Source of the DNA: Gemmatimonadota bacterium
GTDB taxonomy: Bacteria > Gemmatimonadota > Gemmatimonadetes > Gemmatimonadales > Gemmatimonadaceae
Length of the DNA: 64,000 nucleotides
Direction: 5' to 3'
NCBI GenBank assembly: GCA_026387935.1
Contig: JAPLKU010000019.1
Span: 186,001-250,000, forward strand
The notes beneath the pieces are model-generated. The model did no database searches. It was not told the origin of the DNA and was given only the letters and a program-made list of their open reading frames with translations. Position 1 is the stretch's first letter; each line of letters starts with the position of its first letter. Below, in pieces: positions 18,191 through 56,394 of the stretch. The position numbers and the translations under genes were made by a program.

Positions 18191-18393
18191 GGTCTCGGCG
18201 GATCGCTGGGAGCGGACAGGGACCGGAAGTACGTCCGGAGTCTCAGCGGCTGGCATAGGTACTACAACGACTTGGGGGACTACGACGACGGAGCGCGCCG
18301 TCGTTGCAGTCCCCCAAGTATTTGCAGTTGTCGAGTTCACGAGACTTCCGACTCGTCCGGCGGTGTTCCGCTCCCCGCGCTAGCGCCGAGACC
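18191..18393 (+). repeat. Intergenic repeat element, copy A (complete)
   Basis: Bounded by GGTCTCGGCG (18191-18200) and its complement CGCCGAGACC (18384-18393). Inside is a long hairpin: ACTTGGGGGACT (18270-18281) pairs with AGTCCCCCAAGT (18308-18319), and the stem continues inward to 18291/18298 around a six-base loop. The right third reads GTCCGGCGGTGTTCCGCTCC then CGCGCTAGCGCCGAGACC. It fills the gap between the convergent CocE-like and quinoprotein genes. Similar sequence is found at six or more other gene ends in the window. It encodes nothing visible. Confidence 0.75.
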
Positions 18394-18407
18394 TCAGCGG
18401 ATCGCGC

Positions 18408-19661
18408 CTACTTCGGCGTGACCTTGTACAACGCGCCTGGGCTTGCGTCCTCGATCATCCAGAGCGCGCCATCGGGCCCAACCGCCACGTCGCGAATTCG
18501 CTTGCCGACGTTCCAGCGTTCGGCCGACTTGGCGCCGCCCTTTCCATCGAACGTGATGCGGTTGAGCGACGTGGTGGCCATGCCACCCATGAGCGCTGAA
18601 CCATTCCACTGCGGAAACATCGCGCCGTTGTAAAAGGTGAGGCTGCCGGGCGCGATGATCGGCGTCCAGTAGATGACCGGCTTGGTGAGGTCCGGCCGCG
18701 TATCCGGGCTGGCGATCGGCACGCCGTCGTAGTTGGTGGAGTACGACACCAGCGGCCAGCCGTAGTTCTTGCCCGGCTCGATGAGGTTCAGTTCGTCACC
18801 GCCCTTCGGGCCATGCTCGACTTCCCACAACCGACCGTCGGGCGCGAACGCGAGACCGTACGGCGTACGGAACCCCGTGCTCCAGGTCTCGGACAGCGTC
18901 ACGTTCTGGCCAGGAAAGTTGTACGTGCTCACGGGCGCTGCGGTCTTCGCGAGCTCCGTGTTGCGCGGCGGATTGATCACGGCGAGGCTTTTTGCGCCGG
19001 TCTTGCCCGCCATCGGATTGCCGGGTGCCGGTTTTCCGTCGAGCGTCAACCGAAGAATTTTTCCGAGTGGTGAGTCGGGTTCCTGCGCAGGCGTCATGCG
19101 CTGGCGATCACCAACCGTCAAATACAGGAATTGTTTATCAGGTGAAAACGCGACCGCTGCGCCGAACTGTCCACCGCGGCCACGTTCCGCGTCGCGCCAG
19201 ATGACCTGAAGTCCCTCGAGCGTGGCCCATCCGGCGCCTATCACCAGCTTCGCCTTCGCGAGCGCGAGGCTCGAGCCGGCGGCGCTGTCGCCAGGCTCGG
19301 AATAGGTGAGGTAGATGCTCTTGTCGGTCGCGTAATTCGGCGAGACGTACACGCCGAGCATGCCGCCCTGACCTTGGGAAAGCACCGTCGGCACGTTGCC
19401 GATGGAGATCTTCCGCATCGTGGGCCCGCCACCGCGTCCGGCCGGGGCGTCGGATACCAGCCACACCGGTCCGACCTTCTCCGTGATCAGCATCTGCCCG
19501 TCAGGCAGAAACGCGATGCGCCAGGGGAGGTTGAACGTTCCCATCTGCGTCATCGTGAATGGCAGGCTGGCTTCGGGGGCTTGCTCGCCCGCGTTGACCT
19601 GTGCCGCCGCCGCGGTAGATACGACCGCCATCAAGAATGTCGCGCGCGCAATCATCTGCAT
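18408..19661 (-). CDS. PQQ-dependent aldose sugar dehydrogenase-like beta-propeller, exported
   Basis: A 417-residue precursor with signal MIARATFLMAVVSTAAAAQ. The soluble glucose dehydrogenase (GDH-B/YliI) pattern is clear: LPWRIAFLPDGQMLITEKVG (first blade), GGMLGVYVSPNYATDKSIYL, WSTGFRTPYGLAFAPDGRLW and EVEHGPKGGDELNLI. The last contains the His/Lys/Asp region that contacts PQQ and calcium in the family. It ends IRDVAVGPDGALWMIED. It probably oxidises aldoses or other sugars in the periplasm. No PQQ synthesis genes are in the window, so cofactor origin is unknown. It lies 74 bases downstream of the PEBP gene on the same strand. Confidence 0.87.
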   Translation of the reverse strand: MQMIARATFLMAVVSTAAAAQVNAGEQAPEASLPFTMTQMGTFNLPWRIAFLPDGQMLITEKVGPVWLVSDAPAGRGGGPTMRKISIGNVPTVLSQGQGGMLGVYVSPNYATDKSIYLTYSEPGDSAAGSSLALAKAKLVIGAGWATLEGLQVIWRDAERGRGGQFGAAVAFSPDKQFLYLTVGDRQRMTPAQEPDSPLGKILRLTLDGKPAPGNPMAGKTGAKSLAVINPPRNTELAKTAAPVSTYNFPGQNVTLSETWSTGFRTPYGLAFAPDGRLWEVEHGPKGGDELNLIEPGKNYGWPLVSYSTNYDGVPIASPDTRPDLTKPVIYWTPIIAPGSLTFYNGAMFPQWNGSALMGGMATTSLNRITFDGKGGAKSAERWNVGKRIRDVAVGPDGALWMIEDASPGALYKVTPK

Positions 19662-33252: not shown

Positions 33253-33382
33253 AACCGTATTACAGGTTGCGAGGTCAATTCGTTGGCTTCCGGAAGGCGG
33301 TAACTTCCAGCCTGAGTCGCCCTCCACCCGTTGCGGGATGGCCACACCAGCCCGCACGGACTCACTGCTCAAGGAAAACGAT

Positions 33383-36300
33383 ATGCGCTTCCCCTTGCCC
33401 CACATCGCGATCGCCTTCGCCGGCATATCGCTTTCGGCTGCCGCACCGCAGGAGCGTTCGTTCGACGCCGCCTCGGCGATGCATTGGCGCCAGATCGGCC
33501 CGCCGCGCGCCGGCCGCGGTCGAGCGCTCTCGGGAGTGGCCACGCAGCCGAACACCTTCTACATCGGCTTCGACAACGGCGGTGTCTGGCGCTCCACCGA
33601 CTACGGGAACAACTGGGAACCGCTGTTCGACAAGGAATCGACGGGTTCGATCGGTGCGATCGCTGTAGCGCCGTCAAATCCAAAAACGATCTACGTCGGC
33701 ACTGGCGCGGGCATCATCCGCCCGGACCTCGCCACGGGAAACGGCATCTACAAGTCCATCGACGAGGGAAAAACCTGGACGCGACTCGGGCTGTTTGATT
33801 CGCAGATGATCGCGATGATCGACGTGGACCCGCGCGACGAGAATCGGTTGTTCGTGGCGGTGCTCGGACACCCGTACGGCCCCAACGCCGAGCGCGGGAT
33901 TTTCCGTTCGGTCGACGGCGGCAAATCGTTCCAGAAGGTGCTGTACAAGGACGAGTACACGAGCGCCAACGATGTGCGTATCGATCCGAGCAACCCAAAC
34001 ACGATCTACGCGAGCCTCTGGCAGCAACAGCAAGCGTTCTGGGAAGGCGGCGCATTCGGCAGCGGCGGCAACGGCATCTATAAATCCACCGACGGTGGCT
34101 CGACCTGGAAGCAGTTGACGGAAGGGCTGCCGTCGGTGCAGCAGGCGAACATCGCGGTCGCACCGTCGAATCCCAATCTGTTGTATGCCGTGGTCGCGCC
34201 GGCAACCGGCGCGGTTGGATTCTACAAGTCGGAGGATGGCGGCGAGCACTGGAAGCTCGCCGTGGCCGGTGCGAATGGCACGAACGTGCGTGCGCCGGAC
34301 AACCGGCCGATGAATCGCATCGGCGGCGGCGACCTGCCCACGATCGTCGTGGACGGCAAGAACCCGGCCGTGGTCTATAGCGCGAGCACGGTGATGTGGC
34401 GAACGGAAGATGGCGGCCTGAATTGGTCCGCGGTGCGCGGCGCCCCGGGCGGCGATGACTATCAGCGCGTCTGGGTCAACCCGAACAATCCCGACATCCT
34501 GCTCGTGATTTCTGACCAGGGCGGCGTGGTGAGCGCGAATCGCGGCAAGTCGTGGAGCAACTGGTACAACCAGCCGACGGCCGCGATGTATCACGTGACC
34601 ACCGACAACGCGTTTCTCTATCGCGTCTGCAGCGGCCAGCAGGACTCCGGTTCGGCGTGCGTGGACAGCCGCTCGATGGACGGCGAGATCACCTTCCACG
34701 ATTGGCACCCCGTTGGCATTCAGGAGTACGGTGTCGCCGCACCCGACCCGCGTGATCCCGACATGGTGTTCGGATCGGCGCGCACGAATGTATCGATCTA
34801 CAATCGCAAGACGGCGCAGAAGACCAACGTTGGGCCCGATCTTTCGGTGCGCGGTCCCAAAGGCGAGAACTACGGTCGCAACGTGCGCACGATGCCCATT
34901 CAATGGTCGCCGGTGGATCCGTCGATGCTCGTGTATGCATCGAACGCCATCTGGAAGACGATGGACAAGGGCAAGAGCTGGACGCGCATCAGTGGCGACC
35001 TCGCGAAGCAGACCTGGACGGCTCCCGCAAGCGCCGGCAAGTACGCGAGCACGGTGACCCCATCACCGCTTGGCGCGATTACCGGCCTTTCACTCTCGCC
35101 GCGCGATGTGAAAGTGATCTGGGCCGGCACGGACGACGGCAATGTGCAGGTCACGATGGACGGCGGCGCCAAGTGGAGCGATGTCACGCCCGCCGGCATC
35201 AAGCCGTGGACACGCATGTTCAACATCGACGCGGGCCACTTCGACACGCAGACCGCGTACGTCGCGGCGAACACGATGCGTATCGACGATCGCAGCCCGC
35301 ACTTCTGGCGCACGCACGACGGCGGCAAGACCTGGACCGAGATCAACACCGGCATCACCGGCCCGGGAGAGAGCAACGCCATCCGCGAAGACCCGCGCGT
35401 GAAAGGACTACTCTACGCCGCCACCGAAACACAGGTGTGGGTCAGCTACGACGATGGTGATCACTGGCAGTCGCTGCGACTCAACATGCCGGCGATTTCG
35501 GTGCGCGACATCCAGGTGAAGGACGACAGCACCTGTCTCTGCTCCGACCTCGTCGCGGGCACACACGGCCGCGGTTTCTGGATTCTCGACAACCTGACGC
35601 CGCTCCGTCAGCAGGCGGCGCTCAAGGCCGCCGAGTCGGCTCGCAGCGCCTATCTCGTGAAGCCGGCGACCGCAGTGCGCGTGCGCCACGGCACCAATGA
35701 TCCGACGCCCTGGCCACCGGAGCTTCCAGCCGGAGAGAACCCGATGCCTGGGGCGATCCTTGACTACTTCCTTCCGGCGAACGCCTCCGGCGAAGTGCTC
35801 ATCGAGGTTCTGGATCGTGCGAGGAAAGTCGTGCGCTCCTATTCGAGCAAGGACGCAATGCTCGACCCGCATCCGGCCGTCGACATGGTGGCGTACGACA
35901 AAATCTGCCGCGCGCGTCCGACGGCGACGTTCTGCGGCCTCCCGCTCTACTGGCCCGGGCGCCCAATTGGCGTCGCCACGACGGCAGGCATGCATCGGTT
36001 CAGCTGGGACATGCACCTCGAGCCGTTCGAGATCGAGGACATTGAGAATTCCGGCGACGAAGGCGCAACGGGTGCGGTGCCACACAACACGTACGACGAA
36101 CCCAACGCGCCATGGGCAGCCGCAGGCAACTACACGGTGCGTCTCACGGTCGAGGGCAAAACGTACACGCAACCAATCACGCTGCGGCTGGATCCGCGCG
36201 TGAAGACCTCGGCCGTCGGCATGCAGCAGCTCGCATTGCTCTCGCGCGAGATGTGGGATGCGAGCTGGGCCGCGCACGAGGCGTTTGAATCTGCGCGCAA

Positions 36301-36670
36301 GTTCTCCACTGAGCTCGGCAAACTCAGCGGTGCTGATGTGGCCGCGTTCAAGGCGAAGGTAGATTCGCTCGCGCCAGCCCCAGCTGCCGGAGGTCGCGGT
36401 GGTCGTGGCGGCGGATTCGGCGGTCGTGGTGGTGCACCCGCCGGGCCGCTCACACTCGATCGCGCGAGCACCGCGTTCATGGCGGCGGCAATGGGGATGC
36501 AGGGTGCCGACGTTGCACCAACGGATCGACAGGTGGCGACCGTCGCTGCGGCGCGCACCCAGGGCGCACCGGTGACCGCAAAGTGGAAGGCCCTGTCCAC
36601 CATCGGACTCGCCGCAGTCAACGCGAAGCGGAAAGCGGCGGGTGACGCTGCAATCGTGATTCCGAAATAG
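33383..36670 (+). CDS. Second large sortilin (VPS10)/BNR beta-propeller protein, exported
   Basis: ATG 33383 has AAGGA eight bases upstream; an in-frame ATG at 33338 would add 15 residues ahead of the signal PHIAIAFAGISLSAAAPQ. The 1095-residue precursor shares the architecture of the protein at 7672: Asp-box blades (VWRSTDYGNNWEPL, YKSIDEGKTWTRL and YKSTDGGSTWKQL), then GTHGRGFWILDNLTPL, an Ig-like module, and a helical C-terminus with a GGRGGRGGGFGGRGG linker. Cys pairs (STCLCSD, CRARPTATFC) may form disulphides. Probable extracellular or periplasmic binding protein. It is divergent from the glycosyltransferase-like gene. Confidence 0.88.
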   Translation: MRFPLPHIAIAFAGISLSAAAPQERSFDAASAMHWRQIGPPRAGRGRALSGVATQPNTFYIGFDNGGVWRSTDYGNNWEPLFDKESTGSIGAIAVAPSNPKTIYVGTGAGIIRPDLATGNGIYKSIDEGKTWTRLGLFDSQMIAMIDVDPRDENRLFVAVLGHPYGPNAERGIFRSVDGGKSFQKVLYKDEYTSANDVRIDPSNPNTIYASLWQQQQAFWEGGAFGSGGNGIYKSTDGGSTWKQLTEGLPSVQQANIAVAPSNPNLLYAVVAPATGAVGFYKSEDGGEHWKLAVAGANGTNVRAPDNRPMNRIGGGDLPTIVVDGKNPAVVYSASTVMWRTEDGGLNWSAVRGAPGGDDYQRVWVNPNNPDILLVISDQGGVVSANRGKSWSNWYNQPTAAMYHVTTDNAFLYRVCSGQQDSGSACVDSRSMDGEITFHDWHPVGIQEYGVAAPDPRDPDMVFGSARTNVSIYNRKTAQKTNVGPDLSVRGPKGENYGRNVRTMPIQWSPVDPSMLVYASNAIWKTMDKGKSWTRISGDLAKQTWTAPASAGKYASTVTPSPLGAITGLSLSPRDVKVIWAGTDDGNVQVTMDGGAKWSDVTPAGIKPWTRMFNIDAGHFDTQTAYVAANTMRIDDRSPHFWRTHDGGKTWTEINTGITGPGESNAIREDPRVKGLLYAATETQVWVSYDDGDHWQSLRLNMPAISVRDIQVKDDSTCLCSDLVAGTHGRGFWILDNLTPLRQQAALKAAESARSAYLVKPATAVRVRHGTNDPTPWPPELPAGENPMPGAILDYFLPANASGEVLIEVLDRARKVVRSYSSKDAMLDPHPAVDMVAYDKICRARPTATFCGLPLYWPGRPIGVATTAGMHRFSWDMHLEPFEIEDIENSGDEGATGAVPHNTYDEPNAPWAAAGNYTVRLTVEGKTYTQPITLRLDPRVKTSAVGMQQLALLSREMWDASWAAHEAFESARKFSTELGKLSGADVAAFKAKVDSLAPAPAAGGRGGRGGGFGGRGGAPAGPLTLDRASTAFMAAAMGMQGADVAPTDRQVATVAAARTQGAPVTAKWKALSTIGLAAVNAKRKAAGDAAIVIPK

Positions 36671-36727
36671 CGCGCACAGTTCCGGTTACACGACAGCGCC
36701 GGATGGATCGGAGACCCGCCGGATCCG

Positions 36728-36865
36728 GCAACTGACTGGGGACACTACACCGACGGTGCCACGGTGCGATCCGTGGTGATTTCAACCCGTCGTTGCAGTC
36801 GTCTTGCACGCGAAACATCCGAATCATCCGGCGGTGTTCCGCCCACGCGATAGCGCCGAGACCCC
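36728..36865 (+). repeat. Intergenic repeat element, copy B
   Basis: AACTGACTGGGGACACTACA (from about 36730) is nearly the same as the matching part of copy D (56254 on). CCGTCGTTGCAGTC (36787-36800) is the degenerate right arm of the hairpin. ATCCGGCGGTGTTCCGCCC and GATAGCGCCGAGACCCC (36849-36865) are the conserved right end. The left terminal repeat is not found. The remaining gap to 37262 holds a reductase relic and nothing else visible. Confidence 0.65.
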
Positions 36866-36921
36866 TGTCGATCGCGCAGTGCCTCGATGCATGAAGCGTC
36901 AAGCCGGGTTTGAAACCACTT

Positions 36922-37020
36922 CTAGTGCAGCAACGTGAACGCGTTGGTCCACTCGGTCTTCTGGAAGCCCGCGCCGAGCGTCTTCGCCACCGCGCCGGAT
37001 CCGAGTATGCCGAAGTTCAT
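36922..37020 (-). pseudogene. Internally deleted remnant of a COG2085-type NAD(P)-binding reductase gene
   Basis: An ATG-to-TAG frame of only 32 codons: MNFGILGSGAVAKTLGAGF joined directly to QKTEWTNAFTLLH. The first part is the Rossmann motif (GILGSG-VAKTLGAGF) that opens F420-dependent NADP reductase-like proteins. The second resembles their extreme C-terminus (-W-HAFKLL-). The roughly 170 residues between are absent, so both ends of one gene survive with the centre deleted in frame. It has no strong ribosome-binding site. Confidence 0.55.
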
Positions 37021-37262
37021 TGGACCCTCTGAAAAGAAGTGGCGTATATCTCAGCAGCAAGGCAATAAGGCGCGCAAATGGACCCGGTGCGGACCGTTGT
37101 TGGCCACGATCCCGGGGAAGGTGCCGGCTCTGGCGGGGGGCTGGCGGGTCGCCGCCGGCCGGTGCGTGCGCCAGATTCTCACGATCAGCACTGCCGGTCG
37201 TTGCCAGGTTGGACGATCCCGCAGACCCCCCGCCCAGCGCTTCCTTCAGGAGAGAGCAAGTG

Positions 37263-40200
37263 ATGCTCCGCATTTCGTACGCCGTTGCTGTTGCCGCGCT
37301 GTTCTCCGTCCCGACGACCGTCGACGTTACCGTGCACGAAGGCACGTCGATGTCCGTGACCGCGTCTCCCGACGGGCGCACGCTCGCGATTGACCTGCAA
37401 GGCGGCATCTGGACGCTGCCGGCCGCCGGCGGCACGGCGAAACGGGTGACCGACGAATACAACGACGCGCGCGAGCCCGTCTGGTCGCCTGACGGAAAGT
37501 GGATCGCCTTCCAGGGCTATCGCGACGGCGGCTGGGATATCTGGGCCGTGGCGCCGGATGGCACCGGCCTGCACCAGATCACGAGCGGCCCGTACGACGA
37601 CCGCGAGCCGGCCTGGTCGCACGATGGAACGCGCATCGCGTTCTCGTCCGACCGCGGAGACGGCGCCAACTACAACGTGTGGGTTCTGGACCTCGCGTCT
37701 GGCAAAATGACTCAGGTGACGACCGATCCGGGCGACGACTACATGCCCACGTGGGGCCCGGGCGACGCCGAGATCGCCTTCGTGGGGACGCGCGCCGGCG
37801 CACTCGCGATCTATGCAGCCTCGCCGGCCGGCACGAACGAACATCGGGTGGCCGGCGGTGGCCGTGTCGACGCGCCGTCGTGGGGACCGGGCGGGACGAT
37901 CGTCTACAACGTCGCCGCAACAGGATCGAGCCGCCTTGAAGCCGACGGCAAACCACTGACCGGCAGTGAGAACGCCTTCCCGTTCAAGGCCTCATGGGCC
38001 TCGGCGACGGACTTCTATTATGTGTCCGACGGGAAGATCCGCCGGCGGTCGACCACCGGTGGAGAAGCAAAGACCATCGAGTTCTCAGCGACGTTCACCG
38101 TCACGCCGGCGAGCTACGTGAAGCGCCGCCGCGACTTTGATTCACGTGCGCCGCGCAAGGCGCTCGGCGTCGTGCGGCCGATGATTTCACCGAATGGCCG
38201 CTACGTCGCGTTCGCAGCGCTCGGCGACATCTATATGATGAGTGTGGGCGGCAAGCCGACGAAGCTCACGAACGATGCCGCCTTTGACACTGATCCCTCC
38301 TGGTCGCCCGACGGCGCGCAGCTCGCATACGCGTCCGACAAGGGCGGGCCGCTGATGAACATCTGGGTGCACGACGTAAAGGCCGGCACCACACGAAAAA
38401 TCACGGCGCTGACGACGTCGGCACTCGGGCCGAGCTGGTCGCCCGACGGAAAACGGATCGCCTTCCTTGATGTGGACGGCGTCTGGGGCCAGGCGACGCC
38501 GTCGGTGATCGACGTCGCCACGGAAGTGATCACGAAACTGCACGAGCCGATCTTCGCGCCGGGGAACCCGACCTGGTCACCCGACGGAAGCCGGATCGCC
38601 ATGGCGGTGCTTCAGCCGTACTCGAAGCGATTCCGCGAGGGGACGAACCAGATTCTCACCTTCTCGTCCACAGCGGGTACCGCGCAGAGCGCGGACGTGT
38701 GGATGACCCCGGTAAAGCACCTCTCGATTGACTCGCGTGTTGGGGGTGGCCCGGCGTGGTCGCCCGACGGTACGAAGATGGCGGTGATCTACGAAGGGAT
38801 GATGAGCCTCGTCCCTGTCGGCGCCGATGGCACGCCACTCGGTCCGCCGCGGCGGGTAACGAGCGAGATCGCGCATGCGCCGAGCTGGACGGCGGACTCG
38901 AAGCACGTCCTGTACCAAGCCAATGAGAAGTTGCGCCTGCTCGACGTGGAGTCCGGGAAGGCGAGCGATGTCCCACTCGACCTGTCGTTTACGCCGGCGA
39001 TCGCGACCGAACGCGTGGTGGTGCACGCGCCGCAGCTCGTGGATGGCAAGAGCGAGACCCTGCGGAAGGACGTGGACATCATCGTGGTCGGCAACCGAAT
39101 CAAGTCGGTTGGCCCGCACAGCACGGCGAACCACACCGGGGCGAAGGTCGTTGACGCCACCGGCTATACCGTGATGCCGGGTCTCGTGGAGCATCACGCG
39201 CACCTGCAGAAGGATTTTGGCACGGTGAGCGGCCGCGCGTACCTCTCATTCGGCATCACGACGATGCGGAGCCCGGGCGGGTCGCCGTACGAATCGGTGG
39301 AATACAAAGAGGCCGTCGAGGCCGGCGTGCGCCCCGGCCCGCGCATCTTCTCGACGGGCTACCTGATGGAATGGAATCGCGTCTACTACAACATGGCCGT
39401 GGCCGTGTCGTCACCGGCGCATCTCGAACTCGAGATGGAACGGGCGAAGGTGCTTAAGCACGACATGATCAAGAGTTATGTGCGCATGCCCGACCTGATG
39501 CAGAAGCGCATCATCGAGTTTGCGCACGCGGCCGGGATTCCGGTGTCGTCGCACGAGATTTTTCCGTCGTCCCTCTCCGGGATCGACATGACGGAGCACA
39601 CCGGTGCGACGTCACGGCGCGGCTTTTCGCCCAAGCAGGGCCCGCAGCAGGCGACGTATGAGGATGTGATCGAACTCTTCCTTGCGGCGAAGATGCCGAT
39701 TACGCCGACCTTCTCGCTCGGGGGCGCGGGGCTGCGCGAGCTGGCCGCGAAGGACACGTCGCTGCGCACGGATCCGCGGTTTGCGATATACCCGCCCTGG
39801 CTCGTGGCGGCTGTCACCGGTGGTGGTGACGGAGGTGGACGCGGCGGGCGTGGAGGACGTGGAGGACGTGGTGGCGGTGGCGCAGGCGGTGGCGCAGCTC
39901 CTGCGGCCGCGCCCACGGCGCCGGCCAATCCACTCGCCGGACAGGATCCGAGCGGCGGCTACAAGTTCGTGATGCAGCTCCTCAAGCGGGGCGGCACGGT
40001 GCTCGCAGGCACGGACACGCCGCTCGCCGCAAATCTCAATGGCGAACTGCAGACGTTCGTGAACGCCGGAATGTCGCCCTATCAAGCGCTGCATTCAGCA
40101 ACCGTCGACGCGGCACGCGTGCTTGGCGTCGACGCCGGGAGCATTGAGGCCGGCAAGCTCGCCGACCTCGTGATCGTGGACGGCAATCCGCTCGCGGACA

Positions 40201-42868: not shown

Positions 42869-42920
42869 AGCCTCCGGTTCATCCGGCGTCTGTCCGCACC
42901 CGCGCTAGCGCCGAGACCCC
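42869..42920 (+). repeat. Intergenic repeat element, copy C (right end only)
   Basis: CGGTTCATCCGGCGTCTGTC then CGCACCCGCGCTAGCGCCGA and GACCCC (ending 42920) matches the right end of copies A, B and D. It lies between convergent cytochrome c and SET-domain genes. The internal hairpin and left end are not present. Confidence 0.65.
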
Positions 42921-42932
42921 AGCAGTACGGCT

Positions 42933-56252: not shown

Positions 56253-56380
56253 GAACTGACTGGGGGAACTGCACCGACTTCACCTGTCGTGGCAGTTCCC
56301 CCATGTATTTGTCGTGGTCGCACTCAGGAATCATCCGATCCCGTCCGGCGCTGTTCCGCACCCGCGATAGCGCCGAGACC
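56253..56380 (+). repeat. Intergenic repeat element, copy D
   Basis: Hairpin: TGGGGGAACTGC (56261-56272) pairs perfectly with GCAGTTCCCCCA (56292-56303). GTCCGGCGCTGTTCCGCACC and CGCGATAGCGCCGAGACC (ending 56380) form the conserved right end. It lies between the convergent S9 peptidase and CdsA-like genes; no coding content. Confidence 0.7.
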
Positions 56381-56394
56381 CTTCAAGACCACAG

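Follow-up and report, generated by a model that had tools for sequence, protein, structure and literature searches.

Genes and features at the locus

The window, i.e. the whole stretch of 64,000 nucleotides analysed here, carries on its minus strand an open reading frame of 32 codons that encodes the peptide MNFGILGSGAVAKTLGAGFQKTEWTNAFTLLH. The earlier note had described a 32-residue frame with its own ATG and stop, and this description was borne out. The frame, its parts and the adjoining features are as follows:

36922..37020, minus strand: 32-codon ORF from ATG to TAG, read here as the probable remnant of a COG2085-type (PF03807) reductase gene with an internal deletion
36958..37020, minus strand: N-terminal part, residues 1-21, glycine-rich dinucleotide-binding start followed by QK, delimited by profile score and by the fit of K21
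36922..36957, minus strand: C-terminal part, residues 22-32 and stop, TEWTNAFTLLH; intact counterpart [ED]WTHAFKLLH-stop
36958..36969, minus strand: junction zone, codons 18-21 (GFQK), in register with the GF-L-[KR] of both intact ends
37025..37030, minus strand: AGAGGG, Shine-Dalgarno-like, directly upstream of the remnant ATG (read by eye)
36695..36922, plus strand: dispersed element, left-truncated copy with short imperfect terminal inverted repeats and tip GAAGTGGTTTCAA; a neighbour, outside the remnant gene

On the left, the short frame is flanked by a plus-strand gene with a Sortilin-Vps10 match (33338-36670). On the other side lies a plus-strand gene with PD40 and amidohydrolase matches, whose listed ORF opens with a TTG at 37020. 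Since matches of its homologues begin only at residue 80-101 in one comparison (one split piece being left out) and at residue 71-103 in another, the true start of this gene is probably the ATG at 37263 (residue 82), which has GGAGAGAG just before it. With this start, the amidohydrolase gene would not overlap the short frame. No family was matched by the 32-residue peptide in Pfam (E<=10) or in NCBIfam (E<=1). Promoter and terminator patterns were not found either, which carries no information given the low expectation from shuffled sequences (0.2 and 0.4, respectively).

Two termini of a single reductase

The best match of the peptide outside its own genome, in a search of that genome and 40 relatives, is the N-terminus of an intact protein of 212 residues (67% identity over 21 residues) encoded by G024, a genome from the same family as the window. 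This intact protein matches PF03807 (F420_oxidored, 4.3e-18). When three intact relatives were combined into a profile, the structure 3dtt, an NADP oxidoreductase, was hit at 8.5e-38, and STEAP and FNO structures were hit as well. We take COG2085 to be the appropriate label for this reductase family, which is consistent with the PF03807 and structure matches. At least 551 relatives were confirmed in a scan of contigs, and the best 80 of them, as judged by their closeness to one protein, were retained; their records name many phyla. The 78 loci analysed (L159 and L163 being left out) encode intact proteins of 208-215 residues, ~212 being typical.

Most of these intact relatives end with GF-xxxx-W-x-HAFKLL followed closely by the stop codon. 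The short frame has the same spacing and the same stop position, with the H and the K replaced: L106, L137 and L141 end with EWTHAFKLLH-stop, whereas the fragment ends with EWTNAFTLLH-stop. At its other end, it has the glycine-rich loop starting at residue 4. The earlier note had attributed both ends to one NAD(P)-binding reductase of COG2085 type and had proposed their alignment with an intact protein as a check. This alignment supported the attribution: the two parts match the corresponding ends of intact COG2085/PF03807 proteins, correctly ordered and in register, and the centre is absent. Hence, the fragment resembles the small NAD(P)-binding reductases of this group (3dtt, 1jax that is an FNO, and the metalloreductase domains of STEAP) over their first ~21 and last ~11 residues but lacks ~180 of their 212 residues. 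Having retained 32 of ~212 residues, without the full PF03807 domain (94 positions), it is not a working enzyme.

Each part was scored with profiles built from 75 intact homologues (three of the 78, devoid of the strict tail motif, were left out), the background being all stop-free positions in the six frames of the window, and 200 shuffled windows (one strand, three frames, only base composition being kept) were scored as well. Residues 1-19 reach 52.9 bits, the top of 92,612 positions, with a runner-up at -3.7 and a shuffle maximum of 6.0. This score lies inside the range of the intact proteins, whose minimum is 45.7. Residues 20-31 reach 14.8 bits, the top of 103,730 positions (runner-up 4.7, shuffle maximum 12.4), which is below every intact protein, the lowest of them scoring 31.5. 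Taken alone, the C-terminal part is thus only modestly above chance. However, the C-terminal part directly follows the N-terminal one, in the same frame and with the register of the intact proteins preserved, which makes chance a poor explanation; a chance match was rejected on the profile scores and the shuffles.

The fusion of two termini proposed in the earlier note thus stands, whereas the boundary it gave (first 19 and last ~10 residues) has to be moved. K21 fits the N-terminal side of 63 of 76 intact proteins and the C-terminal side of only one, and neither Q20 nor T22 fits either side. Therefore, the split appears to be nearer 21 + 11 than 19 + 10, the exact join not being assignable, and K21 suggests that the N-terminal side runs to codon 21. 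Overall, ~19-21 residues can be attributed to the start of the reductase and ~11-13 to its end.

The join, the missing centre and the adjoining element

The sequences corresponding to the two sides of the join were compared in 76 intact genes (the 78 minus L146 and L171). In the encoded proteins, the N-terminal and C-terminal sides share G (76/76 and 76/76), F (70/76 and 70/76) and L (55/76 and 56/76), and the residue that follows GF-L is K on the N-terminal side (63/76) and R on the C-terminal side (51/76). The GF-L-[KR] codons are in the same phase at both ends, and intact relatives thus have a short in-phase repeat at both ends of the part that is missing here. At the DNA level, in the register of the remnant, the maximum length of an identical run close to the join is at least 6 nt in 17 of the 76 genes and shorter in the other 59. 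When ten shifted registers were examined, such a run was found in 1/76 genes for one of them and in 0/76 for the nine others. When the count begins at the GF codons, 34 of the 78 intact genes have a run of 2 nt and 18 have one of at least 5 nt. Among six genes viewed singly, a 6-mer repeated at GF is present in G024 (CGGCTT, at both places) and in G100 (CGGGTT) and absent there from G128, G111, G149 and the broken gene of G188.

These data are consistent with the following scenario. An ancestral genome would have carried, on the minus strand, a full gene of ~212 codons for an NAD(P)-binding reductase of COG2085 type. About 180 of these codons would then have been lost in frame, through replication slippage or recombination at microhomologies, between two short direct repeats, namely the GF-L-[KR] codons around codons 18 and 198. 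Because both repeats are in one codon phase, the reading frame would have been kept, together with its start and the original position of its stop. What is left lacks almost the whole Rossmann fold as well as the remainder of the protein and cannot act as the enzyme; the sequence would now be drifting. Bacterial pseudogenes resulting from deletions between short direct repeats are a known class, and deletion hot spots have been described in lacI. The fragment resembles this class by the in-phase GF-L-[KR] that, in intact relatives, flanks on both sides the segment missing here, its assignment to the class being inferential.

The earlier note had already invoked such a deletion, and had suggested that relatives be searched for the full gene next to the amidohydrolase gene. 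The in-phase repeat agrees with the proposed deletion, and the search did not provide the parental allele: no such reductase gene was found in the 4.4-5.0 kb fetched upstream of five amidohydrolase loci from four congeners (two loci from G005 and one each from G003, G002 and G010, a second G010 piece, C175, being left out). There is therefore no before/after pair for this locus. This weighs against the reading in terms of repeats, which were judged from other intact genes and not from the parent, and so does the shortness of the DNA identity at the join in most intact genes. The deletion event, the repeats used and its timing are thus what we infer from comparisons between sequences.

A join of this kind could also be produced during assembly, a chimeric contig concealing a full gene. 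The host assembly is indeed a draft (28 contigs, 95% complete), and the join sits at a short repeat of the intact genes. However, a repeat of only 6-10 nt would not normally be long enough to cause a misassembly, and the intact protein from G024 matches nothing else in this assembly at E<=1e-5, even if small pieces could escape such a search. Furthermore, substitutions at conserved sites of the C-terminal part fit an old loss, so that we regard an assembly artefact as extremely unlikely.

The dispersed element that adjoins the fragment has to be considered as well, since the last base of its truncated copy is the third base of the TAG. This copy, which lacks its left end, shares 93% identity with the C17 copy. 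With 36800-37150 as a query, at least 47 matching pieces were found in the genome, self included (40 of 76 candidates scored). The C17 copy used as a query gave 53 matching pieces, the arms of one copy being counted apart and some of the pieces being divergent pairs. Three copies are complete (281, 274 and 274 bp). Their tips are GAAGTGGTTTCA[AT]-like, 14-17 of the 25 bases at the tips are complementary, and no target-site duplication was visible by eye in their 20-bp flanks. Among the 18 genomes of the genus, the element was found only in the host genome, G013 and G005, the latter two harboring two partial pieces each. Its closest known counterparts are the MITE-like interspersed inverted repeats: it resembles such elements by its size (274-281 bp), its short terminal inverted repeats and its many partial copies, and differs from them in that no target-site duplication could be seen by eye in the three complete copies. 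A single match to a known RNA family, inside the element, was far below the gathering score and was discarded. Each complete copy also has a frame that is open over 78-93 codons, i.e. nearly its whole length, which a high G+C content may explain. Further partial matches to the element are present in the window near 18322-18408, 42872-42921 and 56328-56381.

This element could have carried the fragment to its present location, or its insertion or excision could have taken the middle of the gene. Besides ending exactly at the stop codon of the fragment, of which it gives the last base, it has a tip identical to a heptamer, GAAGTGG, that lies 15 bp upstream of the remnant ATG (37036-37042, the heptamer). 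However, this match ends after 7 bases and is probably due to chance. Moreover, the peptide search detected the peptide only once in the genome, as opposed to three complete and many partial copies of the element, and the missing part is internal to the gene, away from the element. We see no reason to consider the element as the cause of the deletion, and any link between the element and the fragment is very unlikely.

Probable decay of the fragment and distribution of the reductase gene

Four residues of the remnant are absent at their positions from all 75 intact proteins. When each of these proteins was left out in turn, no unseen residue was found in 53 of them, one in 19, two in one and three in two. 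Two of the four replace the H and the K of HAFK, which are invariant in the 75 intact proteins, an invariance biased by the choice of the best 80 of at least 551 relatives according to their closeness to one protein. In further relatives, the H is kept (G128, G111 and G149) and the K position differs in G149. The C-terminal part thus looks decayed, and the four unseen residues suggest decay. On the other hand, the 32 codons have remained free of stops and frameshifts and the AGAGGG is still present before the ATG, so that the frame may still be translated; the score of the N-terminal part is, in addition, within the intact range. These features count against a dead fragment.

These latter features would be expected for a genuine microprotein, i.e. 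a fused peptide of 32 residues that is made and selected, for example because it keeps the dinucleotide-binding loop. Its N-terminal half indeed scores like those of intact proteins, and start, stop and upstream AGAGGG are all present. However, among 179 genomes of the family (host included), of which 26 gave some match at E<=0.5, residues 1-32 were covered only in the host genome. The same was true of 395 genomes of the phylum, a set that overlaps the former and in which 10 gave some match at E<=0.1. No orthologous short ORF was thus found elsewhere in these genomes, whereas a 32-residue form conserved in many genomes would, according to the earlier note, have spoken against a remnant. Weak matches to the peptide in G046, G014 and G013 were attributed to chance: they are ungapped with 54-57% identity, one of them has an internal stop and none combines the glycine loop with the W-x-HAF tail. 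Furthermore, the C-terminal half has diverged at positions that are invariant in the 75 intact proteins. We consequently find a selected microprotein hardly credible. A more specific version, in which the in-frame collapse yielded a translated peptide that kept the dinucleotide-binding loop and was recruited to a small regulatory role in one species, is extremely unlikely.

Hence, we consider the 32-codon frame, with a probability of about 0.9, as a pseudogene fragment, derived from a reductase gene whose centre was deleted in frame between short direct repeats. The interpretation given in the earlier note is supported.

The distribution of the intact gene was also examined. The G024 protein used as a query (E<=1e-5) revealed no intact copy in the host genome or in 17 congeners, although several of the latter are incomplete drafts (61-83% complete for four of them), which makes the absence there less than certain; the only match among these 18 genomes is a middle fragment (residues ~124-185) in G008. 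A paralogue in the host genome was considered and rejected: 20 matches to PF03807 were obtained at E<=1, but none to the intact G024 protein at E<=1e-5. Of the 179 genomes of the family, 72 have a match to this protein at E<=1e-10. Since many of these matches have 28-45% identity, many of them probably belong to other subfamilies. Three other copies of the gene look broken:

L082 1692-1910: middle piece, in G008 (same genus)
L088 2173-2526: C-terminal piece, in G186, starting from residue 104 or later among the matches listed
L089 731-1220: frame-changed copy without C-terminus, in G188, with a frame change near residue 75 and nothing past residue 167 among the matches listed

The spread of the intact relatives over phyla, together with these broken copies, suggests that the reductase gene was gained by transfer and lost repeatedly.

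The remnant is a real but ordinary gene fragment; a literature search, in which listings and the opening lines of abstracts were consulted, provided nothing specific to this gene among the entries listed. Of little weight on its own, it neatly illustrates how a gene can be lost through an in-frame internal deletion while a short frame from start to stop persists. Such short frames can be mistaken for small proteins, which makes it a useful warning case.
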